From positions 1 through 50,072 of IMG/VR virus record IMGVR_UViG_3300031673_000078: a stretch of 50,072 nt of DNA. The stretch is one strand, 5' to 3'. Positions 30,144-50,071 of the stretch are shown here, piece by piece (position 1 is the stretch's first letter; every line of letters starts with the position of its first letter). Both the position numbers and the translations under genes were made by a program. Source of the DNA: a virus. A model generated the notes under the pieces. That model did not search any database, was not told the DNA's origin, and was given only the letters and a program-made list of their open reading frames with translations.

Positions 30144-30151
30144 GTTGCAGC

Positions 30152-31054: not shown

Positions 31055-31071
31055 TGTGTTCTCCTCCCTGC

Positions 31072-31266: not shown

Positions 31267-31269
31267 TTT

Positions 31270-31743: not shown

Positions 31744-31744
31744 C

Positions 31745-32024: not shown

Positions 32025-32064
32025 CACTATAACGATCCCACCTAAGCATTTTTTTACATTTTTT
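32025..32064 (-). promoter_or_regulatory. Repeated promoter-like motif, copy P1
   Basis: Minus strand shows ATGTAAAAAAATGC, then GGTGGGATCGTTATAGTG. The 3' part (TATAGT) can serve as a -10. It lies 17 bases before the ATG at 32008 and just after the DnaE stop. Shared with P2 and P3. Confidence 0.75.
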
Positions 32065-32066
32065 CT

Positions 32067-35000
32067 TTAGAAAATCTCGATTCCGTCCAGAGATCCACGA
32101 CCAGAAACCCTGGCTTTTACAACCATCCCAGGCACATAAACGATGCCCTTTTGTAAGTCCCTGGTATAAAAGGACTTGCCATCACGGAAAACCATCCTCA
32201 CAAAAGCCTGACCATCCTTAACCCGATACGCAGCACTCGTCAACACCCCGACATAATTACCCCATCTATCTGCCGTCTTCAGTTTCTGAGCAATCACCCT
32301 GCATTTCCTGGTCGACTCACCGCTGACATACTCGAAGATAGGATTGGTTTTATCGGGATCTTCAAGGTCAATAATGCCATCCAAATAGAGCTTCTGGATG
32401 TCTGGCACCGTGTGGCCTTTAAGAATGCAGGGAAACTTCTTCTTCTCCAGAAGCCTCTTGTAAAAAGTACACATCTCTGGCGGAACCTGAACGTGGATGT
32501 GTCCTCCACCCTCGTCATAAACGTCCATATAGGCGTATTTCCGCTCAAGCAACCCCTCCACAAATAGCGGTTCCCTGTCCTCCAGACCCTCCTGCTTGAA
32601 CGTAATCGATGACACGGCACCCTTAATCCAGACCTCATTGCTATACCCAGCAAACGTCAGATCATTGATCTTCTGATACATCGGCTTCTTCCCAAACGGA
32701 TCCTTAAAATAGGTCGAAATGTGCTTTTCTGCATAAAAATCCAAAACCTCGTTTTGCATTAAAGCGAGCTCTTTTGGGGTATATTCAGGCGATTTTTGCG
32801 GAATTTCCGTTAATTTTGCCTTTAATTTGCAGATTTCATCGATATTCTCTATCGCCCACTTCCGAGATGGAATGAACTCATCCATCGCCCCAGCCTGGAC
32901 AAGAACCTTAATCACCCCCTTATTTACCGCTTTAAGGATGTCCTGGAGCGTCTGATACGGCCTCCCAGCGATGATCTTGGTCACGGCTGCATCTCCGATC
33001 CCTTTTACTGATTTAAGCCCACAGAAGATCGTTTTAGCCCCTACATCCACGTTGTAGCCTGCTTTTGAGTGATTCACATCAGGCGGAACCACATTGACCC
33101 CCATTTCCCGTGCATTTGCCACATAAACCCTGGCTTGCTCTGGGTCTCCTTCCCTGTCCAGAAGGACGCTAAAAAAGACCTCTGGATGGTAAGTTTTGAT
33201 CCAAGCCATCGTGTAGGACAGGATGGAATAAGTGCAGGAATGAGCCTTGTTGAACCCGTAGGAGTTGTGAGAGACGAAACCATTTGCAATAAAATTTCTA
33301 GGCTCATCAAGCATTTCTACATCGTAAGTCTCCCTCAGACCTACCGCCTTGATCTCTGCAATTCTTTCGTTCTGAGTCGGATATCCAATCACCCAGGGAT
33401 TGTTTTTAGACTGAATCCTATGACACTTCCTACAAAGAAGCATCGTATTCTCATCAGAATTATCTAAGTGACTTTCATCAATATGATGCAATTCAATAAA
33501 CTTATCTGAGCCACAAAGTTGACATTTCCCAAGATATTTTCTAACAAGTTTTTTCTTTTGAAAAATCTCTTCATTCGTAAATCCAACTCCCTTCTTAAAT
33601 CTGGGAGAAGGTTGATTGTGAGACCCAGATCCAAATCCTTCTCCGTAAAATTTAGATGGTTTTACAAGATTAGATGTTCTTATCCAATTTCCAACCGACA
33701 TATCTTTAACCATCGTCCACTCTCCATCCACCAAAAAACGATGATCCGCAGATGCTCTTATCCATTTATTAAAATCTGTCCTAATAAAAAACACTTCTTT
33801 CCGACCTGTCTTCCAGATTCTTTTTATTTTATTGTTTCTAACAAATCCATCCTCAGACATCGAATGAACACTAAGCCCTCTCATCTTAAAATTGTGAGCT
33901 TCCTGATATTCAAACGCATCTTTGAGCAAAATCTCCTTCCTTTTGTGTTGATTAGCAGAAGCCCTATAAAGAACCACATCTCCAGTCAAGCATCCGAAAC
34001 GAGTTGTCTTGTCAAAGGTATCATCAGCAAGTTCCTGACTCATCCCCAGGGTCTCTGTTGCGTGTGCCACAAACTCCTGCCTCATCTCCGCAAAAATAGA
34101 TTCACCCATCGACTTCGAGATGGCTTTCCTGAGCTTCTCACACACCGCCCAGGAAAACCCACCGATCTTGTTGAAGAGCTGCATCACCTGTTCCTGATAC
34201 ACGATCACACCAAAGGTATTCTTCGTGATCTCCTCAACCGCTGGATGCAGGTATCCAATGTCCTGGATGCCGATCTTCCTCTGCTGATATGTCGCTGCAA
34301 GACCTGAACGAAGTGGGCCTGGACGAAACAACGCCGAAGCATCCACCAAAGTTTTGAAGTCTGTGCAATCGAGATCCCCGACATATTTCGAGAGACCGCT
34401 GGACTCAAACTGGAACACCCCAGAGGTATTCCCGTTCCTAAAAATCTGCTCAAAAACTTTTTCATCATTCCATTTCTCTGGGATCTTCTCACCCGTCATT
34501 GCAAGGCATCGGGAAACAATATCCAAAGACTTCAGACCCAGGACATCCAACTTCACAATCCCGATCTCTTCAAGGGCTCTCTTCTCCCAGCCTGTCACGA
34601 TCTCACCATTCACCCGATAAACTGGAACATATTTTCTGATTGGATCTCGTGTGATGATGACTCCTGCAGCGTGTCGTGTATTGGTTCGGATGCGCCCCTC
34701 AATCCCAACACAGACTTCCGCAGCTTCTGGATATCTCAGTTTGAATTGCTGCCCCTGCTCAAACCCCTCGAATGCGTCTGAAAGAGTCAATTCGTTTCGA
34801 TCCTCACCTGCCAGCTTCGGAACAATGAGACCAGCGACTCGTTCAATGGATCCTCGATCCACATCATAAATCCTGCCGATATCCCGAATCGTTCCTTTGC
34901 CGTGAAGTTTGGTGAAGGCAATGATCCCACATACCCGATCCTCACCGTACTTCTCGATCAGCTTCTTGATCAACTTGTCTCTTCCGCTGTCCTGGAAGTC

Positions 35001-36878
35001 CATATCGATATCTGGAAGATCCTTACGATCCTCTGAAATGAATCGATCAAACAATAAATCGTGCTCGATTGGATCTGCTTTATGAAACCCAAGCAAAAAT
35101 GCCACAAGCGATCCACCGACTGATCCTCGACCAGGCCCATACATCACACCCAGTTCTTTGGCTGTTTTAATAATGTCATACACCATCAAGAAGTATGCGT
35201 CGTATCCTCTTGAAAGCATCCGCTCCATCTCCATTGCTAACCGATTGGAATACCGTGGATCACTTTTAAAAGGACGTTTTTCAAACTCACTCATTACGAG
35301 ATTCTGAAATGTCTCTTTGGAGTTTTTGAAGTACGGCATCGTGTCTGAGGACTTGAACCTCTCGATCCTGAACGTGCACTTATCCGCAATCGCAAGAGAG
35401 TTCTCAAACATCTCCTCGACCTCATCGTTTTGAAATCCCATCTTCTGCATAATTGCGGAAAGAAGATGATCCTCCATCAGGTAATAGGTGTTGCCCGTAT
35501 ACCCGACCTTCGCATCATTGATCTTCTTACGCTTGTTGATGGCAAGCACTGCGTTGTGAATCTTCTGATCGTTCTCGCAGGAATAGTGACAATCCAATGA
35601 AACAGTCACAGGAATCCCCAGGTTCTTGGCAATCTGATAAACGATCTTCTGCGACTCCTTGAACCCTGGAATAACGTGATGAGGCATCATCTCAACGTAA
35701 TAATCTTCCCCAAATTCCATCTGAAAAAGCTGGGCATATTGCGTTGCCTTCCCCATCTCAGACTTTAAGACGTGGTGCATCAAGAACCCATCCATACATC
35801 CAGACAGAATCAACAGCCCTTCCTTCCTCTCAAGCAAGTGCTTCAAAAGAATTCTCGGCTTATAATAAAATCCTTCAGTGCTGGCAATCCACATCAGCTC
35901 AAGCAAGTTCTTCCAGCCAGTCTGATTCTTGGCGTAAATCGTAATGTGATGCCGATGAAACTTTTCCTTCTTCTCTTCCTCGGCAACCTCTTTGTCCTCG
36001 TCCCCTCGCTTCTCCTTCTTCTCTTTCTTAGGAAACTCCTCGGCATCGTAGATATACATCTCAACACCCAGCAGTGACTTCAGCTTCAGCTCCTCCAGAT
36101 CCTTCTGGAAATAAAATGTTCCATTCAAATGGCCGTGATCACTGACCCCTGCTCCCAGGAACCCTTTCTCTGAGAGCACCTTCGCTAATTCTTTCGTTCG
36201 ATTCGCTCCATCACCGATGGAATACTCCGTGTGCATATGAAGAGGGAAGTATCTCTGCTTCTTCTTAATCTCCACAGGCTCCTCTTGCTCTACCACCTCA
36301 GCCTCAAAATTCATTCGGATCTCTGGCTGCTGCTCTGCGGTCTCTCTGAGGATCTCAACTGCCTGAGAGAAATCATCGATTCCTCTGTCGAGTTCGTTCT
36401 TCTCTGAATAAAATCTTGGATGGTAAATCGATGTGGTTGGAATACCCTGGAACTTGAATGGTCTGAGGAATGCGTCTTTAGCTTTCTTCCCCAGGACTCC
36501 GTAACAAGCACCATCCCCCAGCGTAATTATAAACTTCGGTTTTACTTTTTCGATAACCCAGTCCGTGAGGAAGTTGAAATAATCCAGCTCTTCCTCAGTA
36601 GGCTTTCGGATCTCCCCATTCGGTGGAAACGGAATCAATGGGCAGACATTGACAACTCCGAATGAAGTAATATTTTTACTGAACAGCCACTCATTAAGAA
36701 TATCTCCAGACTCTCCAATAAACGGTTTCCCAATCTCGTTCGCTTCTTTATTCGGGACTCCACCGACAATCAAGAACTCTGGATTTTCATCGCCACGATA
36801 AAATACAATCTTCTTATCGGGCTCGTAAAGTGGACTTTCTTTAATGATGGATTCGAGTTTAGAATTTAACTGCAGCAT
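32067..36878 (-). CDS. dnaE: DNA polymerase III alpha with N-terminal UDG-like domain and intein, 1603 aa
   Basis: Family C replicative polymerase. Residues 1-180 form a uracil-DNA-glycosylase-like domain: VGGVPNKEANEIGKPFIGES, a VVNVCPL strand and HPRFYS. The PHP domain starts about 212 (LHMHTEYSIGDG) and keeps its metal ligands (SDHGHL, SLDCHYS). The polymerase core shows PGRGSVGGSLV, catalytic PDIDMDF (622-628), RHAAGVIIT and KLDVLGLKSLD. An intein occupies residues 963-1205, before YGFNKAHS. The C-terminus ends in an OB-like fold. Without the intein the protein is about 1360 aa, somewhat longer than typical DnaE because of the UDG part. No epsilon-type exonuclease motif is visible; the PHP domain may proofread. 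Confidence 0.92.
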   Translation of the reverse strand: MLQLNSKLESIIKESPLYEPDKKIVFYRGDENPEFLIVGGVPNKEANEIGKPFIGESGDILNEWLFSKNITSFGVVNVCPLIPFPPNGEIRKPTEEELDYFNFLTDWVIEKVKPKFIITLGDGACYGVLGKKAKDAFLRPFKFQGIPTTSIYHPRFYSEKNELDRGIDDFSQAVEILRETAEQQPEIRMNFEAEVVEQEEPVEIKKKQRYFPLHMHTEYSIGDGANRTKELAKVLSEKGFLGAGVSDHGHLNGTFYFQKDLEELKLKSLLGVEMYIYDAEEFPKKEKKEKRGDEDKEVAEEEKKEKFHRHHITIYAKNQTGWKNLLELMWIASTEGFYYKPRILLKHLLERKEGLLILSGCMDGFLMHHVLKSEMGKATQYAQLFQMEFGEDYYVEMMPHHVIPGFKESQKIVYQIAKNLGIPVTVSLDCHYSCENDQKIHNAVLAINKRKKINDAKVGYTGNTYYLMEDHLLSAIMQKMGFQNDEVEEMFENSLAIADKCTFRIERFKSSDTMPYFKNSKETFQNLVMSEFEKRPFKSDPRYSNRLAMEMERMLSRGYDAYFLMVYDIIKTAKELGVMYGPGRGSVGGSLVAFLLGFHKADPIEHDLLFDRFISEDRKDLPDIDMDFQDSGRDKLIKKLIEKYGEDRVCGIIAFTKLHGKGTIRDIGRIYDVDRGSIERVAGLIVPKLAGEDRNELTLSDAFEGFEQGQQFKLRYPEAAEVCVGIEGRIRTNTRHAAGVIITRDPIRKYVPVYRVNGEIVTGWEKRALEEIGIVKLDVLGLKSLDIVSRCLAMTGEKIPEKWNDEKVFEQIFRNGNTSGVFQFESSGLSKYVGDLDCTDFKTLVDASALFRPGPLRSGLAATYQQRKIGIQDIGYLHPAVEEITKNTFGVIVYQEQVMQLFNKIGGFSWAVCEKLRKAISKSMGESIFAEMRQEFVAHATETLGMSQELADDTFDKTTRFGCLTGDVVLYRASANQHKRKEILLKDAFEYQEAHNFKMRGLSVHSMSEDGFVRNNKIKRIWKTGRKEVFFIRTDFNKWIRASADHRFLVDGEWTMVKDMSVGNWIRTSNLVKPSKFYGEGFGSGSHNQPSPRFKKGVGFTNEEIFQKKKLVRKYLGKCQLCGSDKFIELHHIDESHLDNSDENTMLLCRKCHRIQSKNNPWVIGYPTQNERIAEIKAVGLRETYDVEMLDEPRNFIANGFVSHNSYGFNKAHSCTYSILSYTMAWIKTYHPEVFFSVLLDREGDPEQARVYVANAREMGVNVVPPDVNHSKAGYNVDVGAKTIFCGLKSVKGIGDAAVTKIIAGRPYQTLQDILKAVNKGVIKVLVQAGAMDEFIPSRKWAIENIDEICKLKAKLTEIPQKSPEYTPKELALMQNEVLDFYAEKHISTYFKDPFGKKPMYQKINDLTFAGYSNEVWIKGAVSSITFKQEGLEDREPLFVEGLLERKYAYMDVYDEGGGHIHVQVPPEMCTFYKRLLEKKKFPCILKGHTVPDIQKLYLDGIIDLEDPDKTNPIFEYVSGESTRKCRVIAQKLKTADRWGNYVGVLTSAAYRVKDGQAFVRMVFRDGKSFYTRDLQKGIVYVPGMVVKARVSGRGSLDGIEIF
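33264..33992 (-). other. HNH intein inside DnaE, 243 aa (DnaE residues 963-1205)
   Basis: Block A begins CLTGDVVLYRASANQ, block B is ASADHRFLVDGEW, block F is YDVEMLDEPRNFIANG and the end is VSHN followed by Ser, matching a splicing intein with Cys first and Asn last. Between blocks B and F lies an HNH nuclease: CQLCGSDKFIELHHIDESH with CRKCH, a homing endonuclease instead of the more usual LAGLIDADG. It sits beside the highly conserved YGFNKxH motif, two residues from the cyanobacterial split DnaE intein site. All splicing residues look intact. Confidence 0.9.
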
Positions 36879-37185
36879 CGAATTTCTCCACCCCTAAGAG
36901 ATCATCTTCAGTAAGAACCAGGAGTTCCTCCCCATCTATAATAATCGGAGTTCCTGCTTCCCTGAGATACAAAACGATCTCTCCAACTTTTGCGGAAGAA
37001 TAGATCTGCCGTCCATCCTTCGCTTTCCAACCTGTTCCAATAACCAGCACTTCCCCTCTGTCTTGACGCTGTTGCATCACTGAGGGGATCACAATTCCAC
37101 CCACTGTTTCCCCAGCAGGATCACACGGCCTCACAAGAACCTTATTCCTCAACACCTTCAGTTTCATCGTCTTCTTCATCTCCAT
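36859..37185 (-). CDS. GroES-like co-chaperonin, 108 aa
   Basis: Reads like a Cpn10 subunit: LKVLRNKVLVRPCDPAGETV, GGIVIPSVMQ (mobile-loop region), RGEVLVIGTGW, VGEIVLYLREAG, and a final EELLVLTEDDLLGV. ATG 37185 follows GCGGAGG. It overlaps the polymerase start by 20 bases and the upstream membrane-protein gene. A second Cpn10-like protein occurs at 16551. It may modify the host GroEL cage for folding capsid or replisome proteins. Confidence 0.84.
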   Translation of the reverse strand: MEMKKTMKLKVLRNKVLVRPCDPAGETVGGIVIPSVMQQRQDRGEVLVIGTGWKAKDGRQIYSSAKVGEIVLYLREAGTPIIIDGEELLVLTEDDLLGVEKFDAAVKF

Positions 37186-37582
37186 ATATTCCTCCGCTTT
37201 TCCAATCTTCTTCATCAATAAACTCTTCGATTTTTTCACGCATATAATCCAGCTCCTGTCTCTGTCTAAAAATCACCGCCTGGTGATTCCTCATAACGCT
37301 ACCGAAAGACTGAACCATGTTGTTCCCAACATTATCAATCTTCCTAAGCGTCATTGTAATGTTCACAGCCAGGAACAATCCAAAGAAAACAAAACAAACT
37401 GCAAAGCCACCTACCTGCCCCAAATATTTAAAGGACAGGGAGACAACGAATGCTACGGAAAAAGATAAAAACATCCCGTTCCATATAAGAGCCAACATTT
37501 CCGAAGAAGGGACGTTTAGGGTAAACTTGTCCCTTCGATTTTCCGTGCCAGTCTCTTTTTTGTTCTCTCCTCCATCGCCCAT
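37142..37582 (-). CDS. Membrane protein with acidic tail, 146 aa
   Basis: Two hydrophobic segments (residues about 30-50 and 56-80, e.g. GFAVCFVFFGLFLAVNITM) then a helical domain and a strongly acidic C-terminus (GDEEDDETEGVEE). The start follows AGAGGAAG. It overlaps genes on both sides. Function unknown. Confidence 0.68.
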   Translation of the reverse strand: MGDGGENKKETGTENRRDKFTLNVPSSEMLALIWNGMFLSFSVAFVVSLSFKYLGQVGGFAVCFVFFGLFLAVNITMTLRKIDNVGNNMVQSFGSVMRNHQAVIFRQRQELDYMREKIEEFIDEEDWKSGGIYGDEEDDETEGVEE

Positions 37583-37896
37583 AACGCTTCCTCTAGCTTC
37601 GTGATTGTGATTGAATTGTAACGGTTCCGATATTTCCCGTTCTCCTGAATGTCGTTTAGGAATACGATTCGGTCAATCAAAATACGAAGAACCTCGTCAC
37701 ATTGTACCCCATTTACTCCACATTCCTTAGTCGGGCCTTTCTGGAACTTAATCCGCTGCCGTTCCTTCACACCACATTCAATCTCATACTCGTGTCCCTC
37801 GTCAAGAACGATAACGAATGGGCCACCAGCCTGTCTCGGTGGAATCACCCTCTCTTCTTTAGGCTGCATCCCCGACGGTTCTTTTTCATCAGTCAT
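37516..37896 (-). CDS. Possible Acb2/Tad1-domain cyclic-nucleotide sponge, 126 aa
   Basis: The C-terminal half (IKFQKGPTKECGVNGVQCDE with RNRYNSITITKLEEALWAMEERTKKR and ending KIEGT) follows a recurring phage pattern with a conserved GVNGV segment and an alpha-helical LTKLEEAL hairpin. This is like proteins I associate with the Acb2/Tad1 domain, which bind cyclic dinucleotides or gcADPR and block CBASS or Thoeris. The N-terminal 40 residues add a proline-rich lead. The assignment is pattern-based and should be treated as a hypothesis. Confidence 0.5.
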   Translation of the reverse strand: MTDEKEPSGMQPKEERVIPPRQAGGPFVIVLDEGHEYEIECGVKERQRIKFQKGPTKECGVNGVQCDEVLRILIDRIVFLNDIQENGKYRNRYNSITITKLEEALWAMEERTKKRLARKIEGTSLP

Positions 37897-37911
37897 AACA
37901 TCCTCCTTTAG

Positions 37912-39393
37912 TTAAATAACTTCGATTGAAAATCCTTCCTTTTTGTAGATTTTCAATCGTTCTCTGCTGTGCTTCTCCAAATACTTCCCGTCGGAATCAT
38001 AGAAATCTAAAATATGAACGACGTTCTCGCCGTCTTTCTTTCTGAGTCCACGACCGATCCTTTGAAGAATTTGTCTCCTGCTCTTCTTTCCTCCTACCAG
38101 AAACAGCATCTGAATTCTGTTGATGTCGATACCCTCATCAATAATGTTGGTCGAAATCAAAACCCTGAGCTTGCCATTCCTGAACCTGTCCAGGCTTCCT
38201 TCCCTGGTCTCGCTATCCCCGTGGATGAAGGCAACATTATTCTTCTCCTTCTCCCACAAAAGATCATAAAGAATTCTCCCGTGATCCAGGTAATCGATCA
38301 CGATAAGGCATTGCTTGTCTTTATATTCTCCACATACTTCCTGGACAACGATCCCGTTCCTCTCTTTGTTGTTAATGATATTGCTTCGGATCACCATCTG
38401 ATAAACAGGCTTATAAAGCTCTTGCCTCATCCTCCAGTCTGGCTCCTCATCTTTCTGGAGCTTACCTTCCTTGATGAACCTAGCTTTGACCTCTTCAACC
38501 AGTGCTGCATAATTGATGTGATGCGTAATCCTATGGACGAAAATGCTGGGCTCCGCAGAGATCCCCTGCTCAATCAGCTCCTTGTTGGAGATATTAAAAA
38601 CGACATCACCGATATACATCCTGGTCTGCCAGCCATCATACGAACTCTCTTCCTGAATCGTCCCAGAGAATCCATACCGATAAGTGGCCTTACTTCTTCT
38701 GAGAACCTTCTGAAATGATTCCGACTGCCCATGATGAGCTTCGTCGATCATCACGGCATTGCTCGAATCAAACATCTCAGTAATCTCATCATCGGTGTCT
38801 AGCCTGTTGACCAGCGTGAGAATCATTGCGATGTTAATCTTTGGATCGATGTCACAATAATCTGAGGTAACGGTTCCGACATTCATCCCCGTCTGATCCA
38901 TCACCATCTCCCGAAGCTGGACTAGGATCTCTTTCCTGTGGATCAAAATAAGAACCTTCTCGTCCTTCAGGATTTTGCAGAGACCCGAAATAATCGCAGA
39001 CTTCCCTGCATTCGTTGCTGCCTGAATCAAGCAATTCTTATTCTCAAATCCAGAAAAAATTGCTTCCTTCTGATAATCCCTGAGCTTCAGCCCAATCAAT
39101 GTCGGCATCTCAAACTTAATCGAATTGATCCTGCGTCTGTCATCAAGGTCTTTGTCATTGAGATTAAAGAGCTTCATCGCCCGACTCAAGAATCCAATCG
39201 GAACCATTCCGTTAGGAATCACACCATTCTTCCATCCCATAAAACATTTCTTCCCATCCCACTTCTTCGACTTGAATAAATGCGTATATCTCGCCCCAGG
39301 AACATCAATCGTAAGCATCTTCCTAAGCTCCGTTCTTTGATAAAAGTTGTCATAGACAACCTCAAAAAATGACGGATAAATAATTATCTTCAT
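37912..39393 (-). CDS. UvsW-like SF2 helicase, 493 aa
   Basis: Superfamily 2 ATPase: Walker A in QAATNAGKS (126-132), DEAH box in VMIDEAHHGQSES (about 216), motif III SGT (YGFSGT), motif V in ISTNIIDEGIDI and motif VI QRIGRGLRK. The N-terminal domain (residues 1-100) matches the small fold preceding the helicase in T4 UvsW. UvsW-type enzymes unwind D-loops and R-loops and restart replication. ATG 39393 overlaps the primase stop. Confidence 0.88.
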   Translation of the reverse strand: MKIIIYPSFFEVVYDNFYQRTELRKMLTIDVPGARYTHLFKSKKWDGKKCFMGWKNGVIPNGMVPIGFLSRAMKLFNLNDKDLDDRRRINSIKFEMPTLIGLKLRDYQKEAIFSGFENKNCLIQAATNAGKSAIISGLCKILKDEKVLILIHRKEILVQLREMVMDQTGMNVGTVTSDYCDIDPKINIAMILTLVNRLDTDDEITEMFDSSNAVMIDEAHHGQSESFQKVLRRSKATYRYGFSGTIQEESSYDGWQTRMYIGDVVFNISNKELIEQGISAEPSIFVHRITHHINYAALVEEVKARFIKEGKLQKDEEPDWRMRQELYKPVYQMVIRSNIINNKERNGIVVQEVCGEYKDKQCLIVIDYLDHGRILYDLLWEKEKNNVAFIHGDSETREGSLDRFRNGKLRVLISTNIIDEGIDINRIQMLFLVGGKKSRRQILQRIGRGLRKKDGENVVHILDFYDSDGKYLEKHSRERLKIYKKEGFSIEVI

Positions 39394-42150: not shown

Positions 42151-42332
42151 CCCTTCCCCACGTTCCACAATCTCTCCCTTCCCGTTAATCTTCGATACTG
42201 ATCGCTGTTCTGCTCAAAATGCTGGCACCCGTTATCGAAGCACCCATTCCTTTCAAGAACCCTCCGCTCAACATCGAAGTCGTGAAGACGGCAGTACCCA
42301 AAGTACCGCCGTCTCCGCTTCTTCTTTTTCAT
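42147..42332 (-). CDS. Small basic Cys protein, 61 aa
   Basis: MKKKKRRRRYFGYCRLHDFD with C, H and later CFDNGC gives a possible small zinc site. TAATG overlap with the upstream gene and ATGA overlap with the loader gene support it. Function unknown. Confidence 0.6.
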   Translation of the reverse strand: MKKKKRRRRYFGYCRLHDFDVERRVLERNGCFDNGCQHFEQNSDQYRRLTGRERLWNVGKG

Positions 42333-42748
42333 TATTTGAACGAAATCTTATAGTCAATCGCCACATTGACTTTCTTGAATACGGTAATGCTTCCAAGAAT
42401 CAGACTAGCTTGAATAAAGCTCCTGACCTCTTCCTCGGTCTCGAATCCCTTGACTCCGCCATTCTTGATGTAAACAAGATAATTCGATTTCTCAAGAATC
42501 TTCTCCGTCTTATGCTGTCCTTTCGGAGATGAAGTCTGAATTCCCATATCGGAAGTCATTTTGTGAAACCGCTGATACAACGCAGAAGGCCCACACTTGC
42601 GACCAAACTTCTCAAGACAATACTTCGTCATATTTTCATCTTCAATCTGTCTGAGAGTCGGTCTGCCACCGTGATCCTGAATCACCTTCTTCGACCAAGC
42701 TACTTCCGCTGGTGTCAGCGGAGCAAACTTCAGTAATCTCTTCGCCAT
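42332..42748 (-). CDS. Hypothetical protein with HTH-like N-terminus, 138 aa
   Basis: Starts MAKRLLKFAPLTPAEVAWSK; the first half (GGRPTLRQIEDENMTKYCLEKFG) looks like a winged or homeodomain-like helix unit. The C-terminal half is a small alpha/beta unit (YLVYIKNGGVKGFETEEEVR). In a replication operon this may be an origin- or ssDNA-binding factor, by position only. AGGAGG precedes the start. Confidence 0.6.
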   Translation of the reverse strand: MAKRLLKFAPLTPAEVAWSKKVIQDHGGRPTLRQIEDENMTKYCLEKFGRKCGPSALYQRFHKMTSDMGIQTSSPKGQHKTEKILEKSNYLVYIKNGGVKGFETEEEVRSFIQASLILGSITVFKKVNVAIDYKISFK

Positions 42749-42773
42749 CTTCTTTGTCCTCCTTCCTTCCATC

Positions 42774-43199
42774 CTATTTTTTTCTAAATGAATCTACGAC
42801 CAGCATCTTGGGTTTGAATTCGAGCTTCATCCCCTCAAACATCTTGAAATTCAATTTCCTAAGAGCCTTGTAAACGTGCTGTCCGTTCGCAATGACTCCA
42901 AACCCCATCGAGAAACGCATCCGTGTTTCATAGGCTGCGTGTTCCGCTTTCTCTTCCAGGGTGTATCCGCCCTTCGTTGTGTAGATCCATCTATCGAATC
43001 CCTCAACGCCGTTACGGAAATTCTCCCTAGCTTGTGCGATGGCCTTCCGAACCTTGTCTCTCGGAATATCCATCTCTTCGGCCAAAACGCTCATGGAAAG
43101 AATACCTCCACTCTCCATCGTATCCAGCAACAGCTCCGCCTCACTTGTCCTCTTCACGACGGAACCGTTTTTCCTTTTTTGAAGTTGCTTACTTTTCAT
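42774..43199 (-). CDS. HTH protein, 141 aa
   Basis: Residues about 30-60 (GGILSMSVLAEEMDIPRDKV then RKAIAQARENF) are a clear winged-helix or HTH pattern. The C-terminal half is strand-rich. It may be a transcriptional regulator or initiator. ATGA overlap with the gene at 43196. Confidence 0.64.
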   Translation of the reverse strand: MKSKQLQKRKNGSVVKRTSEAELLLDTMESGGILSMSVLAEEMDIPRDKVRKAIAQARENFRNGVEGFDRWIYTTKGGYTLEEKAEHAAYETRMRFSMGFGVIANGQHVYKALRKLNFKMFEGMKLEFKPKMLVVDSFRKK

Positions 43200-43597
43200 C
43201 GCTTGTCCTCCAAGACTTTCTGGAAAAGGCCAGCGTCTCGGATGCCAAACACTGCTTTTTGAACGATGTCCTTCTTATCCTGCGGAAGAGCTTTGAAGTT
43301 GAGCTTGTTAGCTTCTTCTTTGACCCTGATGAGCAATATCACCAAATTCATCAAATCGAGACTACCCTTGAGTGCTTTCTTAACCTCTCGGATATTCTTC
43401 TTCTCTTCTTCGGTTAAGGGACTAACCCTTCTTTTGGGTCGCTTCGCCTTCTCGGATATCGATACCTTAACGCCCTTTTTGGTGACATTAAGAAGAATCT
43501 TGTCGTCGCCAACATACGACTTGTATTTGGCTTCGTCAGAGACCTTTTCCACCTTCGTTTTCAACAATCTTGCCAAACCCTCTAGCTTTGCATTCAT
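43196..43597 (-). CDS. Basic hypothetical protein, 133 aa
   Basis: First gene after promoter motif P2; ATG 43597 lies nine bases after AAGGAGG. Lys-rich, with an N-terminal coiled segment and a central KRPKRRVSPLTEEEKKN stretch. Mostly helical. No recognised motif, but basic proteins at the head of a replication operon often bind DNA. Confidence 0.66.
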   Translation of the reverse strand: MNAKLEGLARLLKTKVEKVSDEAKYKSYVGDDKILLNVTKKGVKVSISEKAKRPKRRVSPLTEEEKKNIREVKKALKGSLDLMNLVILLIRVKEEANKLNFKALPQDKKDIVQKAVFGIRDAGLFQKVLEDKR

Positions 43598-43628
43598 CTT
43601 ATCCATCCTCCTTTTTTTACTCCTTCTT

Positions 43629-43666
43629 CACTATAACGATCCCACCTACCCGTTTTTTTACATTTT
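43629..43666 (-). promoter_or_regulatory. Repeated promoter-like motif, copy P2
   Basis: Minus strand ATGTAAAAAAACGG then GGTGGGATCGTTATAGTG. It is identical to P1 over the GGTGGGATCGTTATAGTG part. Located between the gene at 43671 and the ATG at 43597. Confidence 0.75.
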
Positions 43667-43670
43667 ATTT

Positions 43671-44039
43671 TTAATCCAGCCCGTCTTCGTTTCCTCTAGG
43701 ATTATGCGGAACAGCATATTCCTCCTGGGATTGCTGCCCAACAAACTCCTTCCCAGACTCTTCGTTGACATAATACCAATAGCGATGCCACGGATTGGCC
43801 CCTGGGAACTTCGATGGAACAACCTCCGTCTGAAACGGCTGCATATCTTTTGTGATGGTATAAACCTTCCCCTCCATCACGATCTCAATACGAACTGCTT
43901 TGCTGAGATATGCTTTAGCCTGATCAGAGATGCTAAAGGAAAAATTCCCCTTCTTGCTTTTGATCGGCCTCCGAAGTTTTGTTCGTAAAAAATCCCTACC
44001 ACATTCCCAATCTTCACCACGCAATGTTATGACTTGCAT
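43671..44039 (-). CDS. Hypothetical protein, 122 aa
   Basis: Begins MQVITLRGEDWECGRDFLRT and is beta-rich in the middle (VRIEIVMEGKVYTITKDM), with a Trp/Tyr-rich segment (WHRYWYYVNEESG). The TAA of the upstream gene directly precedes its ATG. No recognised domain. Confidence 0.66.
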   Translation of the reverse strand: MQVITLRGEDWECGRDFLRTKLRRPIKSKKGNFSFSISDQAKAYLSKAVRIEIVMEGKVYTITKDMQPFQTEVVPSKFPGANPWHRYWYYVNEESGKEFVGQQSQEEYAVPHNPRGNEDGLD

Positions 44040-44510
44040 TTATCCCTCCTCAGAAAGAATCATTTCCTTGACTGTATTAAGGAAAATCCTCTTGAGTTCA
44101 TTGCCATACCCAAACCGCTTCTGGTTGATTTCAATGGACTTCAGGATGTCCCCATCAGCGTGTCTCCTGGTGGCTGCTCTCCAGTCGCAAATCATCTCAA
44201 TCAGGTCAAACAAACTCATCCCCAGGATGCCGTTAGAACTGAATTCTGGATGATGTGAATTGTTGGCGTAATGGTGATCCAGGGCTGGCTTCATCTGCGC
44301 CAGGAACCCTTTGTATTCCTCCGACCCATAAGTGCTGCCCTTCAGCTTCGGAGTGAATTCCACGAAGGTATCGACCTCGATATCCGACATCTTCGATGCG
44401 TCGTGTTTCTCTGCCCGATCAGCTATGTTGTTAATGACTCCCAGAAGTTCCTTGCGAACCTCACCGATGTGTTCCTTCGTCTGCAGTATTGTTATCTCTT
44501 TTTCATTCAT
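44040..44510 (-). CDS. DUF5662-like phage protein, 156 aa
   Basis: Characteristic order of motifs: EKHDASKMSDIEVD, then KPALDHHYANNSHHPEFS, LFDLIEMICDWRAAT, RHADGDILKSI and RFGYG. The HxxSK and HHxxNSHHPE histidines could bind metal, as in HD-type hydrolases; the family function is unassigned. GGAGCAATCTG precedes the ATG. Confidence 0.78.
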   Translation of the reverse strand: MNEKEITILQTKEHIGEVRKELLGVINNIADRAEKHDASKMSDIEVDTFVEFTPKLKGSTYGSEEYKGFLAQMKPALDHHYANNSHHPEFSSNGILGMSLFDLIEMICDWRAATRRHADGDILKSIEINQKRFGYGNELKRIFLNTVKEMILSEEG

Positions 44511-44522
44511 CAGATTGCTCCT

Positions 44523-44792
44523 TCACTCATAAAAACTCTTGAGTTGAATTTGTTCAATTTTGTGAGTGGCCTGAATATCAACGTGATGACAAATAATCTT
44601 GTCGATCTCAGATACCTTCCACGGTCTATATTTCTTTAATGCACCATTGCATAAAGAAAAGGCTTTGTTCTGTGAAAATTTCTTAGCATCTTTGAGATCG
44701 CAGGTGTATCCGTTGCTGTCGGTTCTCCACCAAAGAAGACAATTCCCGACAACCCCACGCTCAATATTCTCGACGTAATACTGCTCGCTCAT
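44523..44792 (-). CDS. Small phage protein with VGNCLLWW motif, 89 aa
   Basis: MSEQYYVENIERGVVGNCLL, WW, then DSNGYTCDLKDAKKF and a basic C-terminal half. The YYVxN...VGNxLLWW...GYTxDL pattern occurs in many phage genomes with no known function. ATGA overlap with the membrane gene above. Confidence 0.7.
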   Translation of the reverse strand: MSEQYYVENIERGVVGNCLLWWRTDSNGYTCDLKDAKKFSQNKAFSLCNGALKKYRPWKVSEIDKIICHHVDIQATHKIEQIQLKSFYE

Positions 44793-44920
44793 AACATTCT
44801 CGCCATCACAAAAACAATAAACGCCAGGGCTACAAGAAACGCCAGGGCTACAAGCGTGACCCCAATGATTACAAAAACCTGCGCTGCTGGATGAAGTACC
44901 GCTATCGCTTCAAGCATCAT
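44789..44920 (-). CDS. Single-pass membrane peptide, 43 aa
   Basis: MMLEAIAVLHPAAQVFVIIG plus a strongly hydrophobic C-terminal stretch; almost the whole protein is one long transmembrane segment. The ATG overlaps the phosphoesterase stop (ATGA). The long in-frame extension upstream is shadow. Function unknown. Confidence 0.6.
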   Translation of the reverse strand: MMLEAIAVLHPAAQVFVIIGVTLVALAFLVALAFIVFVMARML

Positions 44921-45423
44921 ATCGCCCCTCTTGCTACCAGTGTAAGAACTGTGTCGAGCAGGACAGGCTGGAAATCCCACACATCCACCCCGACGTTTAC
45001 GATTGTTGTTTTGACATCCAGGCGTGTCTTCAACCGAACCTGCCATCGCTCGTGAATATGCCCACACAAATTCAATGGATGTTCCATCGACGCATACAAG
45101 GGATCGTGACCAAGCCTGATTCTCATACCGCCATACTCAATACTCACTGTTTGCGGTCTGTGCTTAAAAAACGTCTGTCTATCGTGATTGCCAATCACCC
45201 AGATAAATTCTCCTGGAAGATCGACAAGATAATGCTCTGGGTTCTTGTAAAAGCAAAAGTCACCCAGAAAATAAACCAAGTCATCCTTGCCAACAACTGC
45301 CCTGAAGTTATCCAGAATAGCCTTGTCCATCGCCTCCACGCTATCGAAAGGACGGCTGCAATACTTGATGATTTTCTTGTGCCCCAGATGCCAATCTGAA
45401 GTCACCCAAATTTTCCTACTCAT
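44917..45423 (-). CDS. Calcineurin-like metallophosphoesterase, 168 aa
   Basis: Motifs of the fold in order: IWVTSDWHLGHKK, DLVYFLGDFCFY, VIGNHDRQTF, IRLGHDPLY and CGHIHERW. All metal-ligand residues are present, so a phosphodiesterase or phosphatase activity is likely. Small phage members may act on nucleotides or RNA. Start MSRKIW behind a G-rich site; the longer ORF overlaps the upstream peptide. Confidence 0.86.
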   Translation of the reverse strand: MSRKIWVTSDWHLGHKKIIKYCSRPFDSVEAMDKAILDNFRAVVGKDDLVYFLGDFCFYKNPEHYLVDLPGEFIWVIGNHDRQTFFKHRPQTVSIEYGGMRIRLGHDPLYASMEHPLNLCGHIHERWQVRLKTRLDVKTTIVNVGVDVWDFQPVLLDTVLTLVARGAI

Positions 45424-45560
45424 CCACCCCCCCAGAACATCCTCCTTAACAATCCCCAAAACCCATCATAAACCCAAAGAGCCTTGTAGGATCCAAATTG
45501 ACACTTAGGGCATTCCACCCCAATTAAAAACAAATGCTTACACCTTGCACAAACTCGCAT
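45420..45560 (-). CDS. Small zinc protein, 46 aa
   Basis: CARC and CPKC knuckles in MRVCARCKHLFLIGVECPKC give a compact zinc site, followed by a Trp/Gly-rich tail. ATG 45560 overlaps the upstream TGA (TGATG) and its own TGA overlaps the phosphoesterase ATG (ATGA). Convincing by arrangement; function unknown. Confidence 0.64.
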   Translation of the reverse strand: MRVCARCKHLFLIGVECPKCQFGSYKALWVYDGFWGLLRRMFWGGG

Positions 45561-46273
45561 CAGTCAATCCGCATCAATGCTTCAAGTTCGTTAATCTCTT
45601 CCTTCGAGAGTCCACCCTTCTGACCCTCTGGAGCATCTGCATCGAAACCTTCACCCTTCTTGAAGAGCTCGATTATTTTAACCCTGTATTCGTCATCCCG
45701 TTCCTGCCAGTCGATGAAAAGCTCAAGCACCTGCCTGGGCTTCGCCCAATATCCCTTACCGATGTATTTGATGACTCGATAAGTCGAACTGATTGGACAG
45801 TGGATGTTTTTCAATCGAAGAATTTTCTGCTTCTCATCCTCGATGAAATCTTCATCCACAAGACATTCGGTTGGAGACTGAATCCCAGCCCTCACGATTG
45901 AGAAATCAAAATTGTCCAGGATAAGCGACATTTCTCCGAGGGTTACGACTCTGCCTTCTTGGGTGGGTTTGATGAGCTGAACTGGGGGACAAGCCAGCCA
46001 CTTGATTGCTTCATGCTTCTTAAGGGTCAATGAGATATCGTTCTCATGCTTAATCTCAAAACCTTCCGAAACAAAGTATTCTTTCAATCCTTCATATGCT
46101 TCTACCTTCAAAGGGAAAACATCGATGTCCCCTGCCGTAACTGGCTTGCTGTTTTGCGATGCACAATATCTTGCATAGCCACCGCAAATGATTCCTTCTC
46201 TAGCTGTAACTGCTTCATACAGCTCCTTGATTTCAGTGAAACCTCTCAACAAAGGTACTGTAACGTATGCCAT
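45560..46273 (-). CDS. Nucleotidyltransferase-like protein, 237 aa
   Basis: Contains ICGGYARYCASQ followed by AGDIDVFPL, the GG/GS...DxD layout of DNA polymerase beta-type nucleotidyltransferases. The two Asp (DID) would bind Mg. The rest includes a C-terminal helical part. It is shorter than tRNA-nucleotidyltransferases and lacks the tRNA-binding domain, so the substrate is unknown; AMP or UMP transfer to a protein or small RNA is possible. Start MAYVTVPLLRG at 46273. Confidence 0.68.
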   Translation of the reverse strand: MAYVTVPLLRGFTEIKELYEAVTAREGIICGGYARYCASQNSKPVTAGDIDVFPLKVEAYEGLKEYFVSEGFEIKHENDISLTLKKHEAIKWLACPPVQLIKPTQEGRVVTLGEMSLILDNFDFSIVRAGIQSPTECLVDEDFIEDEKQKILRLKNIHCPISSTYRVIKYIGKGYWAKPRQVLELFIDWQERDDEYRVKIIELFKKGEGFDADAPEGQKGGLSKEEINELEALMRID

Positions 46274-46308
46274 CTTCTTCACCATCCTTTTTGAATTTCA
46301 ATTCTCAA

Positions 46309-46515
46309 TCAACTAAGTTTTAAACCATTCACCCAAACAGAAAGAGTGAAGTCCTTCGGTGGCCGTAGACACCTTTTCCCATCCACATAGAATTCCAGTT
46401 CACCGTCCCGTCCGACAAGACTCAGGAAATTCCACCCGTGATTCTTGTAGAACGGGACAACGTGAACCAAATCCCCGTATAAACTCTGATATGCTTGCCT
46501 ATCAGCTAAACCCAT
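46309..46515 (-). CDS. Hypothetical protein, 68 aa
   Basis: Start at 46515 (MGLADRQAYQSL) is favoured by TAATG overlap with the upstream stop. Contains a Gly/Asp-rich turn and WVNGLKLS at the end, strand-rich. A longer ORF upstream with CVICG would overlap the membrane gene by 88 bases; that start cannot be excluded. Confidence 0.58.
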   Translation of the reverse strand: MGLADRQAYQSLYGDLVHVVPFYKNHGWNFLSLVGRDGELEFYVDGKRCLRPPKDFTLSVWVNGLKLS

Positions 46516-47084
46516 TAAACACCAGCCCTCTGGATCAGCATTGCTATCGGAACCGCAGATGACGCACCAAAACAGAACTCCACCAGCTTCCATACGAACC
46601 AATTTCTTGTTTTGGGTAAATTACTAAGCGTCCCCGTAATCCCGTAAACAACACACGGCACTAACGAGATCAAAACCGCTGTCATAATCATCCCCATCGG
46701 AATACCCATCGTAATACAGGCAATTCCGTTCAAGTAGCCCAGCACCCATATCCAGACCCAATTGAGCCAGGAATCGTGCACTGAGTCCCCTATCAGCGTG
46801 AATGGCAGCGTCTTCAGGATCATATAGGCTCCAACTATTGCCAGGATCCACCAACTCCACCCCACAAAGAAATAGAACGCTGCTGCTGCAATGACTGGCG
46901 GTATGAATCTCCCGATGAACTTCCACCAGGTTCCGCCGATCATTCTGAAGAGCCCGAAGATCGGAACGATAAACCAAACCTCTTCTACAACGGGCTTGAC
47001 CCACCAAATCGAAATCAGAAATGCTGCACAAGCAAATCCGAATACCGATGCGATGATTTTCTTAATTGCTTTTGTATCAATCAT
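46515..47084 (-). CDS. Polytopic membrane protein, 189 aa
   Basis: At least five hydrophobic segments, e.g. SVFGFACAAFLISIWW, then VIAAAAFYFFVGWSWWILAI and GIPMGMIMTAVLISLVPCV. Trp-rich interface residues. GAGGCTAAGA precedes the ATG. Possible superinfection-exclusion, holin or unknown membrane function; nothing decisive. Confidence 0.7.
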   Translation of the reverse strand: MIDTKAIKKIIASVFGFACAAFLISIWWVKPVVEEVWFIVPIFGLFRMIGGTWWKFIGRFIPPVIAAAAFYFFVGWSWWILAIVGAYMILKTLPFTLIGDSVHDSWLNWVWIWVLGYLNGIACITMGIPMGMIMTAVLISLVPCVVYGITGTLSNLPKTRNWFVWKLVEFCFGASSAVPIAMLIQRAGV

Positions 47085-47361
47085 TCTTAGCCTCTACTTT
47101 CTCTGGAGTATTGATGTTGTGGGTGAGATTTTTCAGGAAATCTTCTAATGGCATCCAGTTGTTTCGATCCACTTTTAATAATTTGAAACTACATTTCTTG
47201 TGAACAACTTCAAATCCACTGAGACACTTGGCATCGAATTCAACATTTGCTTTCTCAATACCCAAAATATTCTCCCCACAAATATCACAAATAGCTATCG
47301 GACAAAATGATCCGCCAGCCTCTGGATAAATATCTTTTCTGTATTTAATCGTTAATCCCAT
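47077..47361 (-). CDS. Zinc-site hypothetical protein, 94 aa
   Basis: CPIAICDICGENI near residue 20 plus a later HKKC suggest a treble-clef zinc site. Start MGLTIKYRKDI at 47361 behind AGGGAGGC; the longer ORF upstream overlaps another gene. Function unknown. Confidence 0.66.
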   Translation of the reverse strand: MGLTIKYRKDIYPEAGGSFCPIAICDICGENILGIEKANVEFDAKCLSGFEVVHKKCSFKLLKVDRNNWMPLEDFLKNLTHNINTPEKVEAKND

Positions 47362-47539
47362 TTTTAGCCTCCCTTTTTTGTCGCCTGACTTCAGGGAGCC
47401 CGTCTTTGTAAGCCCTGCCAGCCTTGCGTTTGAATTTACCTGCTTGCCTCGGAGTCGCAGGAATCCCTGCTGCCTCACAGCACTTTTTGAAGTGATTATC
47501 TTCCGCAGCAAATTTACGATTTGTCATTCCGTCGCTCAT
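47345..47539 (-). CDS. Basic small protein, 64 aa
   Basis: Lys/Arg-rich (FKRKAGRAYKDGLPEVRRQK) with CC near residue 20. AAGGAG precedes ATG 47539. Overlaps the next gene by 17 bases. It may bind nucleic acid. Function unknown. Confidence 0.65.
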   Translation of the reverse strand: MSDGMTNRKFAAEDNHFKKCCEAAGIPATPRQAGKFKRKAGRAYKDGLPEVRRQKREAKNGIND

Positions 47540-47556
47540 AAAATCTCCTTAAAAAT

Positions 47557-47907
47557 TCAGCCAAAGTGTGAAAAAATTTCCTTTATTTTCTTATCTTTGC
47601 CCCACATTCTCGTATAGCCCAAAATCATTGATTCAATTACCTTAAACTTATCTTTAGTGGACAATACACGACAAGTATTCCAGGTGCCCCCCAATGCGTA
47701 TGCAGAAAAAATTAGGGACGAAATCATAAGAGTAATCGCTCTTTTTTCAGCCATCTGTATCACTTCCATCTCACCCAAATCTTCCGCTGCTATATTGGCC
47801 AACTTATCCCTGTGAGAATTGATCACTGCAGATAAATCCTTTTCAAACTCGTTAAGAGCTGCGGAATATAAAACCTGCAAATACATTGGATCAGGTTGTT
47901 CTTCCAT
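47557..47907 (-). CDS. Hypothetical protein, 116 aa
   Basis: Helical, with one moderately hydrophobic helix (ITLMISSLIFSAYALGG) that may be membrane-associated. Its ATG is one base after the HNH stop codon, so both are translated together. No motif recognised. Confidence 0.64.
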   Translation of the reverse strand: MEEQPDPMYLQVLYSAALNEFEKDLSAVINSHRDKLANIAAEDLGEMEVIQMAEKRAITLMISSLIFSAYALGGTWNTCRVLSTKDKFKVIESMILGYTRMWGKDKKIKEIFSHFG

Positions 47908-47908
47908 C

Positions 47909-48343
47909 TCACACCATCCTCTTTATTGGAGCTCCAGACAAATGACTAATTTTTGTTATCGCTCCTTCGCAATCCAAACACAACCCAATTAAATTATCTT
48001 TTCCTACATTTGGTTTCTTGCTGTTCCGCCCTTTCCCATCCAAATGAACCAGTGCAAAATCCCTGCCATATTTAATTCTGTGCTGATCCCTTCCCAATCC
48101 GCAGTGCAAACAAACATTCCCTTGCCTCTTCATCACCAATTCACGATTGCCACCGTGACGAACCTTATCGACGTGCTTACGCTTGTAGGCTTGCTGAAGA
48201 TGCCGATTCCTCTTCTTCCATTCCCGATTTATTTCATTCCTACATTCCTTACACGGCTGCTTGTATCCCCTTTTCCGATCCAAGCAAAAATCTTCTGTAC
48301 TTTTCACCTGATCACATTTACTGCACACATCTGTTTCAGTCAT
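47909..48343 (-). CDS. HNH endonuclease with N-terminal zinc ribbon, 144 aa
   Basis: MTETDVCSKCDQVKSTEDFC then CKECR is the zinc ribbon seen before many HNH homing nucleases. The HNH part reads CLHCG..., LVHLDGKGRNS, then KDNLIGLCLDCEG, with the H and N of the HNH signature; the first His is followed by Leu-Asp. Probably a free-standing homing endonuclease. Start at 48343 chosen by overlap with the upstream stop. Confidence 0.78.
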   Translation of the reverse strand: MTETDVCSKCDQVKSTEDFCLDRKRGYKQPCKECRNEINREWKKRNRHLQQAYKRKHVDKVRHGGNRELVMKRQGNVCLHCGLGRDQHRIKYGRDFALVHLDGKGRNSKKPNVGKDNLIGLCLDCEGAITKISHLSGAPIKRMV

Positions 48344-48569
48344 TTGGATATTCCCATCCTGGACAAAGTTCACTTGCTTCATCCCACGCCTTGCCAGCCA
48401 TCGTTCCCGTGAAGGGCTCATCGTCAGGCATTCCGTGCATCCTGTTGCGTGTAACAAGCGCACACAAAGGACACATTGGAGTTTGAACCATCTTGCCTTC
48501 GTGACTGTAGACCAACGGTGAAATCAGTCGATCTGGAAATTTGTTTTTGCAAACCTCACACGTTCTCAT
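48336..48569 (-). CDS. Zinc-finger protein, 77 aa
   Basis: MRTCEVCKNKFPDR at the N-terminus and CPLCALVTRNRMHG in the middle form a four-Cys zinc site. Start at 48569 is fixed by the overlapping small gene upstream, which occupies the other frame. Ends WEYPND. Function unknown. Confidence 0.68.
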   Translation of the reverse strand: MRTCEVCKNKFPDRLISPLVYSHEGKMVQTPMCPLCALVTRNRMHGMPDDEPFTGTMAGKAWDEASELCPGWEYPND

Positions 48570-48720
48570 CTGTGAACCTAAACCTTTTGAGCTGGTTGAA
48601 GAGATGACTTCCTTCAGCTCTTGTGATTCGGATTTTCTTCTCGCCAATTAACAACGCAATCCGATTTCGCTTTTTGTCTCGCTTCCGCTCTTCCCTGGTT
48701 TCCCTCACGACCTTAATCAT
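48556..48720 (-). CDS. Basic small protein, 54 aa
   Basis: ATG 48720 overlaps the upstream TGA (ATGA) and the ORF overlaps the next start by 14 bases. Starts MIKVVRETREERKRDKKR, strongly basic, with a short beta-like IALLIGEKKIRI segment. It occupies a region that could otherwise be taken as a 5' extension of the zinc-finger gene. Function unknown. Confidence 0.58.
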   Translation of the reverse strand: MIKVVRETREERKRDKKRNRIALLIGEKKIRITRAEGSHLFNQLKRFRFTDENV

Positions 48721-48926
48721 TCCAAAAAATCTCCCATCCTAATTCCTTCGTGTGCAAAATGCTCGTACCTGCGAATCTCTTTTGCGCCAAGCAATCGCTT
48801 GAGCTGCCAAACCTCACCCCTGATATCAGAACGAATAAGTTTTCCGTCGGCGATGTAAGTGTAAAGTGGAAATACATTGCAGTCGTCTTCGAGGATTGTC
48901 TCCGATTCCGTGAGCTTAAATGTCAC
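48717..48926 (-). CDS. Hypothetical protein, 69 aa, GTG start
   Basis: GTG 48926 overlaps the upstream TGA (GTGA), preferred to the longer ORF in the same frame. Sequence MTFKLTESETILEDDCNVFP is acidic first, then basic helical (VWQLKRLLGAKEIRRYEH). Function unknown. Confidence 0.58.
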   Translation of the reverse strand: MTFKLTESETILEDDCNVFPLYTYIADGKLIRSDIRGEVWQLKRLLGAKEIRRYEHFAHEGIRMGDFLE

Positions 48927-49045
48927 AGCACACCCGTGATTCGTGCTGCAAGAATCGAATGCTTTTTGCGGAGTTTGTCGATGACCTCTTTGTAGTCGGC
49001 TGGCCTGTCGTGGCATACTTTTGCGTAGAGATAAAGCTGATTCAT
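48923..49045 (-). CDS. Small helical protein, about 40 aa, start uncertain
   Basis: Begins MNQLYLYAKVCHDRP if the ATG at 49045 is used; the frame is open further upstream into the previous gene, with TTG or CTG choices near a GGAAG site. KEVIDKLRKKHSILAARI is a basic helix. Weakly supported start; the gene itself is supported by operon packing. Confidence 0.5.
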   Translation of the reverse strand: MNQLYLYAKVCHDRPADYKEVIDKLRKKHSILAARITGVL

Positions 49046-49065
49046 CGTGTAAATCAAATCTTCCG

Positions 49066-49809
49066 TCAGGCCATCACCGCCATCTTTTCTTGCCTCTTGC
49101 GCCTTGCGAATTCCTGCTCCAGAATTTCTCTTCCCCATCCTCCGAGTCTGCATTCTTCACCCAATCTTTCGTCGTCATACCCACGGACTTCCTCGCAATA
49201 CATCTCTCGAAAATTCGTGTAGTCTACGGTTTTGGTTGCGTAACCTTTCGTCGCCCGATACCACTTCGCAAGGTCACTTGATTTCACGAAATGAAAATAG
49301 CTTGCGAATTTCACAAGCCCTTTTCTCTCTCCCTGACGTGCCAAAAAATTCGGGAGAGCCACCACAAATTCTTCCCAATCCGCAATCAGCGGATACTCCG
49401 TTTTGTCAAACCTGAGAACGAATTCAAGAACCGTCATATGCGACGTATTCCGCATAAAATTCATAAACGGGAATTCCCAATTTGTCTCGGATTTGTATCT
49501 GAGCATTATCCCAATCGCCCTGGAATAGGCTTCAAAAAACTCAATCGAATCAGCAAATTTTTCTCTGGAAATGTTCTGGGGGCCGATAGCCTCAACTCGC
49601 TCCCGAATGTTTTTTAGGATTTCTGGGTAGGTCTTGCCGTGCTTGGGCTTTGCTTTGATCGTCTCACAAACCTCCAGCAGGAAGGACGTGTAGGTCACGG
49701 AATCATCGATCTCGCCAAACAGGTGCGAGATCTTTTTCTTGTTCACAGGAGTCGTAAACCCCAATTGTGGCTCGAACTTACGAAATGTCACGGTCTTCAA
49801 ATTCAGCAT
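49066..49809 (-). CDS. Hypothetical protein, 247 aa
   Basis: First gene after promoter motif P3. No domain recognised: N-terminal beta-type start (MLNLKTVTFRKFEPQLGF), a mainly helical middle with many aromatic residues (KWYRATKGYATKTVDYTNF) and a basic C-terminus. Being first in the early transcript, it may be a host-takeover protein, by position only. Confidence 0.66.
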   Translation of the reverse strand: MLNLKTVTFRKFEPQLGFTTPVNKKKISHLFGEIDDSVTYTSFLLEVCETIKAKPKHGKTYPEILKNIRERVEAIGPQNISREKFADSIEFFEAYSRAIGIMLRYKSETNWEFPFMNFMRNTSHMTVLEFVLRFDKTEYPLIADWEEFVVALPNFLARQGERKGLVKFASYFHFVKSSDLAKWYRATKGYATKTVDYTNFREMYCEEVRGYDDERLGEECRLGGWGREILEQEFARRKRQEKMAVMA

Positions 49810-49825
49810 AAGATACCCTCCCTTT

Positions 49826-49864
49826 CACCCTTAACGATCCCACCGAAGCATTTTTTTACATTTT
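49826..49864 (-). promoter_or_regulatory. Repeated promoter-like motif, copy P3
   Basis: Minus strand ATGTAAAAAAATGC, then GGTGGGATCGTTAAGGGTG. It matches P1 and P2 but the -10-like TATAGT is altered to TAAGGG, so this copy may be weaker or differently regulated. It starts 17 bases before the ATG at 49809. Confidence 0.7.
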
Positions 49865-49930: not shown

Positions 49931-50071
49931 TGGGAACCCTTCCCAGCGATTTTTCAAAAATGTCTCTAAAAAACAAAACCGAGTATTGGCTCCGCAGGAG
50001 CCAATCACACGAGCGAAGCGAGTGTGAAGGTGAGGGTAGTGTCTGAAGTGTCCTACGACTGCTCCGTAGGA
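49931..50071 (-). other. Hairpin cluster upstream of P3
   Basis: CTGGGAA-CCC-TTCCCAG (about 49931-49947), ATTGGCTCC/GGAGCCAAT (49985-49993 with 49997-50005), TCACAC/GTGTGA (50005-50010 with 50022-50027) and TCCTACG/CGTAGGA (50051-50057 with 50065-50071). No ORF is present from 49810 to the right edge. These may be the 3' end of an upstream transcript or a structured element. Confidence 0.5.

Follow-up and report, generated by a model that had tools for sequence, protein, structure and literature searches.

In the replication region of a phage genome, three gene groups are each headed by a copy of a two-block element, and diverged copies of this element precede genes in a related phage. From these sites we consider it probable, at roughly two chances in three, that the element represents a phage-specific class of promoters from which transcription of the replication-region gene groups is started. 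It matches neither the usual promoter of the host nor any identifiable promoter type. The DNA analyzed here, referred to as the window, is the complete IMG/VR record IMGVR_UViG_3300031673_000078 (50,072 bases), in which nearly every gene lies on the minus strand and non-coding sequence accounts for 5.9% of the length according to our own gene model. The record is probably a genome fragment, since its portal gene is near the left end and neither capsid nor tail proteins were recognized among the window proteins scanned.

The element and its copies in the window

The 29-base pattern TGTAAAAAAA-N6-GGTGGGATCGTTA matched the window exactly three times (32030-32058, 43634-43662 and 49832-49860), always on the minus strand, and the conserved block reaches farther upstream (AAAATGTAAAAAAA). 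The chance expectation for the 23 fixed bases is 2.6e-9 copies in the window. A pattern scan tolerating up to three mismatches gave no further site in the window, and a reversed control pattern had no match there. Using a weight matrix, the three sites, which were themselves among the training set, scored 45-49 bits, and the best unrelated place in the window scored -1.7. No other comparable recurrent word, gapped or ungapped, was found upstream of the window genes. All three copies fall inside the non-coding portion, in short intergenic gaps. These data confirm a sequence-only reading of the same DNA, which had placed three intergenic copies on the coding strand and none elsewhere in the window; hits scattered inside genes, which that reading had set against a promoter role, were not seen in the window. 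The common strand of the copies says little, since practically all the window genes share it.

The start codons lie 14-36 bases from the motif. Good ribosome-binding sites were present at the starts behind all three copies (32008, 43597 and 49809), as had been proposed; the start behind copy 2 shifts, however, being more likely 43597 than 43606 since the ATG at 43606 abuts GGAGG. The proposed grouping of the genes, with the loader, helicase, primase and polymerase in one unit and the SSB and recombinase in another, agrees with the PHROG annotation (Table 1). The element would coordinate the expression of these groups.

Table 1. Copies of the element, gene groups and neighboring signals (L017, related phage; all other positions refer to the window)
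Feature	Position	Strand	Sequence or remarks
Copy 1	32026..32064	-	AAAATGTAAAAAAATGCTTAGGTGGGATCGTTATAGT; 58-base gap from DNA polymerase stop (32067) to gene 31745-32008
Copy 2	43630..43666	-	AAAATGTAAAAAAACGGGTAGGTGGGATCGTTATAGT; upstream of gene 43196-43597, head of the loader/helicase/primase/polymerase group
Copy 3	49827..49864	-	AAAATGTAAAAAAATGCTTCGGTGGGATCGTTAAGGG; upstream of gene 49066-49809; lacks TATAGT
Relative copy	L017 ~2309-2310		GCAAAAAAAATCGTGTCGATTGAATCATTATATC; after helicase, before another gene group
Relative copy	L017 ~11275-11276		ACAAAAAAAATTGGGTCGGTTGAATCATTATAAT; between polymerase stop and next gene
Unit 1	28824..32008	-	downstream of copy 1; putative boundaries
Unit 1, genes	31745-32008, 31270-31743, 29818-30057	-	
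Unit 1, gene	31072-31266	-	transcriptional-repressor PHROG match
Unit 1, SSB	30152-31054	-	
Unit 1, recombinase	28824-29816	-	UvsX/RecA-like
Unit 2	32067..43606	-	downstream of copy 2; putative boundaries
Unit 2, loader	41539-42168	-	DnaC-like
Unit 2, helicase	40244-41542	-	DnaB-like
Unit 2, primase	39390-40247	-	
Unit 2, second helicase	37912-39393	-	
Unit 2, GroES-like	36859-37239	-	
Unit 2, DNA polymerase III alpha	32067-36878	-	
Unit 3	43671..49809	-	downstream of copy 3; HNH endonuclease-like, metallophosphoesterase, DUF5662, unknowns; putative boundaries
Intrinsic-terminator-like hairpin	49973..50005	-	ATTGGCTCCTGCGGAGCCAAT then T-rich tail; upstream of copy 3; pattern match only
Sigma-70 consensus promoter (perfect)	28762..28789	-	TTGACA-16-TATAAT; upstream of gene 27422-28696; consensus match only
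Divergent sigma-70/ECF-family-like protein	12684..13400	-	238 aa; adjoins terminase gene; TIGR02937

Two neighboring signals bear on the function of the element. Since a terminator-like hairpin precedes copy 3, the gene behind this copy probably needs a promoter downstream of the hairpin. No terminator was found in front of copies 1 and 2, and readthrough could thus serve the genes behind them. Furthermore, the genome holds a perfect sigma-70 consensus promoter elsewhere, which argues that the motif forms a separate class. An inverted repeat (TCAGTAAG...CTTACTGA) precedes that sigma-70 promoter, and a gene for a DUF932 protein lies behind it.

We also considered an action at the RNA level. An element of the 5′ leader that controls translation or processing of transcripts started at promoters elsewhere would fit the constantly short distance between motif and start codon. 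However, the motif regions folded at chance level (z-scores of -1.0 to +0.7), no covariation or pairing was detected at the motif sites, and the Rfam search of the motif gave no match; these results favor a role at the DNA level. Moreover, the space that separates copy 3 from the terminator-like hairpin leaves little room for another promoter. An RNA leader element is therefore highly improbable.

Several other features of the window were recorded. The polymerase III alpha is a protein of 1603 aa with an N-terminus resembling uracil-DNA glycosylase and an intein that contains an HNH endonuclease. The gene 21067-24060 (minus strand) encodes a 997-aa protein in which SbcD (residues 1-308) and SbcC (283-985) are apparently fused. 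Two proteins are GroES/Cpn10-like, one in unit 2 and the other encoded at 16551-17039; the similarity of the latter is weak, as is that of its N-terminus to desulfoferrodoxin. A long G+C-rich hairpin (30058-30151), possibly an attenuator, separates the SSB gene from gene 29818-30057. About 500 bases at 18997-19508 hold no convincing gene and gave no Rfam match, and a transposase-like gene (phrog_10081, 17593-18366) is found slightly farther down the coding strand. Finally, a direct repeat of 33 bases (4824-4856 and 5333-5365) is 97% identical.

Diverged copies of the element in a related phage

One close relative, IMGVR_UViG_3300031673_014298 (12,955 bases; L008/L017), was found by the helicase search. 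By alignment, its polymerase, helicase and SSB are 57%, 61% and 63% identical to those of the window. It holds two copies of a diverged motif with unchanged internal spacing, each immediately before a start codon. The copy at L017:11276 occupies the same place as window copy 1, in the gap that follows the polymerase stop, and the genes behind it (homologues of 31270-31743 and of the SSB gene) are syntenic with the window. Weak dUTPase-like, methyltransferase and ThyX genes follow the other copy (L017 2353-5154); only in the relative is this group located between helicase and polymerase. The polymerase of the relative (L017:6049-11268) carries the Pfam domains UDG and Intein_splicing at places matching those of the window polymerase.

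With a matrix built from the window copies only, the two copies of the relative took the top two ranks in L017 (16.7 and 14.2 bits), while the ten other L017 gene starts tested reached at most 5.9 bits. Four of 500 shuffles attained 16.7 bits and none held two hits of at least 14.2 bits. The similarity of these two copies to each other is 89% across 37 bases. All five sites were aligned without internal gap as AAAAAA-NN-G-NN-T-N-G-R-T-K-G-R-ATC-R-TTA, the spacing being equal in both genomes and the A-run slid by one base in the relative as compared to the window. The copies agree within each genome, and the positions that distinguish one genome from the other are the same for all of them. Sites that are read by a single trans-acting factor in each phage would be expected to behave in this way. 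The motif-model search of related phages, which the sequence-only reading had suggested, thus yielded two copies before gene groups and brings the number of sites to five in two partial genomes.

The motif was not found in more distant relatives of the polymerase or helicase (L006, L007, L009-L012 and L023-L038; the scan did not extend to the helicase set L119-L197). Single pattern hits in the viral contigs L004, L005, L013-L016 and L018, the surroundings of which were briefly inspected, look like chance. A scan of genome contigs gave no close relative, its matches being apparent bacterial chromosomal DnaE genes at around 30% identity, and BLAST of copy 1 against phages returned nothing. The pattern-based search reaches close relatives only, and the two carriers, the window and L017, are both incomplete genomes.

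How the element may be read

We infer the promoter role of the element, as well as the start position, the reading factor and the timing of its action. According to the promoter reading, a trans-acting specificity factor would recognize the A-tract ((T)AAAAAAA), the fixed spacing and the GRTKGRATCRTTA block, and RNA polymerase would start just past this block, before reaching the ribosome-binding site. Most likely, this factor would be made by the phage, either as an activator or as an alternative sigma on the host RNA polymerase, for which 12684-13400 is the candidate.

The element had first been described as promoter-like, and this description stands: it heads three gene groups, is conserved in place in the relative and is distinct from the sigma-70 consensus. 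The reported lack of TTGACA was verified, since an A-run occupies the position 16-18 bases from the -10 in every copy and the consensus scan lists no copy. What became doubtful is the use of TATAGT as a -10 with a start seven bases farther on. The hexamers at this position in the five copies are TATAGT, TATAGT, TTAAGG, TATATC and TATAAT; copies 1 and 2 do contain TATAGT as claimed, but copy 3 keeps the 23 core bases without the hexamer. Moreover, a start seven bases past the hexamer at L017:2310 would leave a leader of four bases and cut off the ribosome-binding site AAAGGA. The gene start assigned there seems correct, since residue 9 is the first of a dinucleotide-binding-like motif (VIGGGISG). 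If transcription began near the end of the block, each of the five leaders would retain its ribosome-binding site, which is an argument drawn from five sites.

Several of these features would be accounted for by a host sigma-70 promoter with a standard -10 (TATAGT or TATAAT) and an activator covering both the -35 and the spacer, on the model of the T4 middle promoters that depend on MotA with AsiA. TATA follows the block in four of the five copies, with TATAAT at L017:11276, and 17-18 bases lie between TATA and the end of the upstream A-run, which is where the -35 would sit. The host evidently reads sigma-70 promoters, given the perfect consensus in the genome. In T4, too, a phage element replaces the -35 and the genes served are those of replication and recombination (PMC2988021). 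The MotA box has the consensus (a/t)3TGCTTtA, 11-13 bases from the -10 (PMC2988021), and copies 1 and 3 approach it with ATGCTT around 11 bases before the -10 position. However, TGCTT is missing from copy 2 and from both copies of the relative, and the most conserved part is the spacer beside TATA, not only the region at -30; the A-tract is a further difference. Copy 3 has TTAAGG, whereas an excellent -10 is a requirement of almost every T4 middle promoter (PMC2988021), and the short leader at L017:2310 also speaks against this explanation. MotA and AsiA were not named in the PHROG and Pfam scans of window proteins tried, the record being incomplete. Overall, we regard sigma-70 with an activator as unlikely.

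The long, rigid motif would also suit a promoter that an RNA polymerase of the phage itself, single-subunit of the T7/SP6 type or of another kind, recognizes and from which it starts at the G behind TTATA. A G is found at the supposed start in all three window copies and, with a start there, no leader would lose any part of its ribosome-binding site, but the relative has A and T at this position and the motif is longer than T7-type promoters. PF00940 (T7-type) had no match in the incomplete window record, although the positive controls were silent as well. We hold this explanation to be quite improbable. Still less probability attaches to operators or stoperators like those of mycobacteriophage L5, where transcription is blocked by a bound phage repressor. 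The L5 stoperators are asymmetric 13-base intergenic sites tied to lysogeny (PMC9283540), and in the window element, likewise, a block of some 13 bases is asymmetric and lies in short gaps between genes, in a single orientation to transcription. Yet L5 has more than twenty copies (PMC9283540) and the 50-kb window three, a second conserved block, the A-tract, lies at a fixed spacing, and no integrase or other lysogeny genes were identified among the window proteins scanned. Such a site would also be unneeded directly after a terminator, as at copy 3.

Other known systems were compared with the element. Promoters of the sigma-28 type have the form TAAA-N15-GCCGATAA. The window element, TAAA-N15-GATCGTTA, has the identical geometry, but its -10 block matches at around 3 of 8 positions and the relative reads CAAA or AAAA. 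In phiEco32 and 7-11, promoters are read by a phage-encoded sigma, and the 7-11 motif was found from the genome sequence alone (PMC4331800). As in these phages, the window carries several intergenic copies unlike host promoters and encodes a sigma-like protein; their core (TAATGTATA, TGATGT) is short, however, whereas the window element consists of two blocks of 10 and 13 bases at fixed spacing, and the sequences are unrelated. Since the MotA box is not common to all copies and one good -10 is missing, since the phiEco32 and 7-11 motifs are unrelated, and since the L5 sites are numerous, we judge the element to be a phage-specific promoter class outside every named class.

Candidate readers and implications

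The sigma-like protein encoded at 12684-13400 matched TIGR02937 with an E-value of 3.4e-8 over profile positions 11-163 of 165, at 33.3 bits, which is below the curated 42.9. The match to PF04542 was weak, Sigma70_r4 was not found in the Pfam search, and no relatives were detected in the phage collection. From its sequence, this protein is a plausible candidate reader of this or another promoter class, and it offers a concrete candidate where the sequence-only reading had considered a phage-modified polymerase or an activator. The position of its gene beside the terminase gene suggests a role in late-gene expression rather than in the control of replication genes. Two other candidate DNA-binding proteins, 42774-43199 and 31072-31266, gave weak PHROG hits. 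As sigma-like candidates, 24060-24584 and 42774-43199 were rejected: their PHROG hits were weak, and their single-sequence structure models (pLDDT 52 and 47) are too poor to carry any weight. The fold search with 24060-24584 was meaningless. A more specific proposal, that a highly diverged phage sigma (12684-13400) would read the A-tract in place of the -35 and GRTKGRATCRTTA in place of the spacer and -10, in a sequence co-diverging with its reader from phage to phage, would define a new promoter class in an uncultured phage lineage; we put it forward tentatively and consider it rather doubtful.

Phage-specific promoters are seldom recoverable from uncultured phages. If the reader were a mere activator on host sigma-70, the element would be an ordinary variation on the T4 middle promoters. 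As a phage-specific promoter class, the element in two related genomes would provide a cognate pair of motif versions together with a candidate reader, so that promoter specificity and its drift become testable. The motif also helps to assign the gene groups of this lineage to transcription units, and it may be used for linking further contigs to the lineage.
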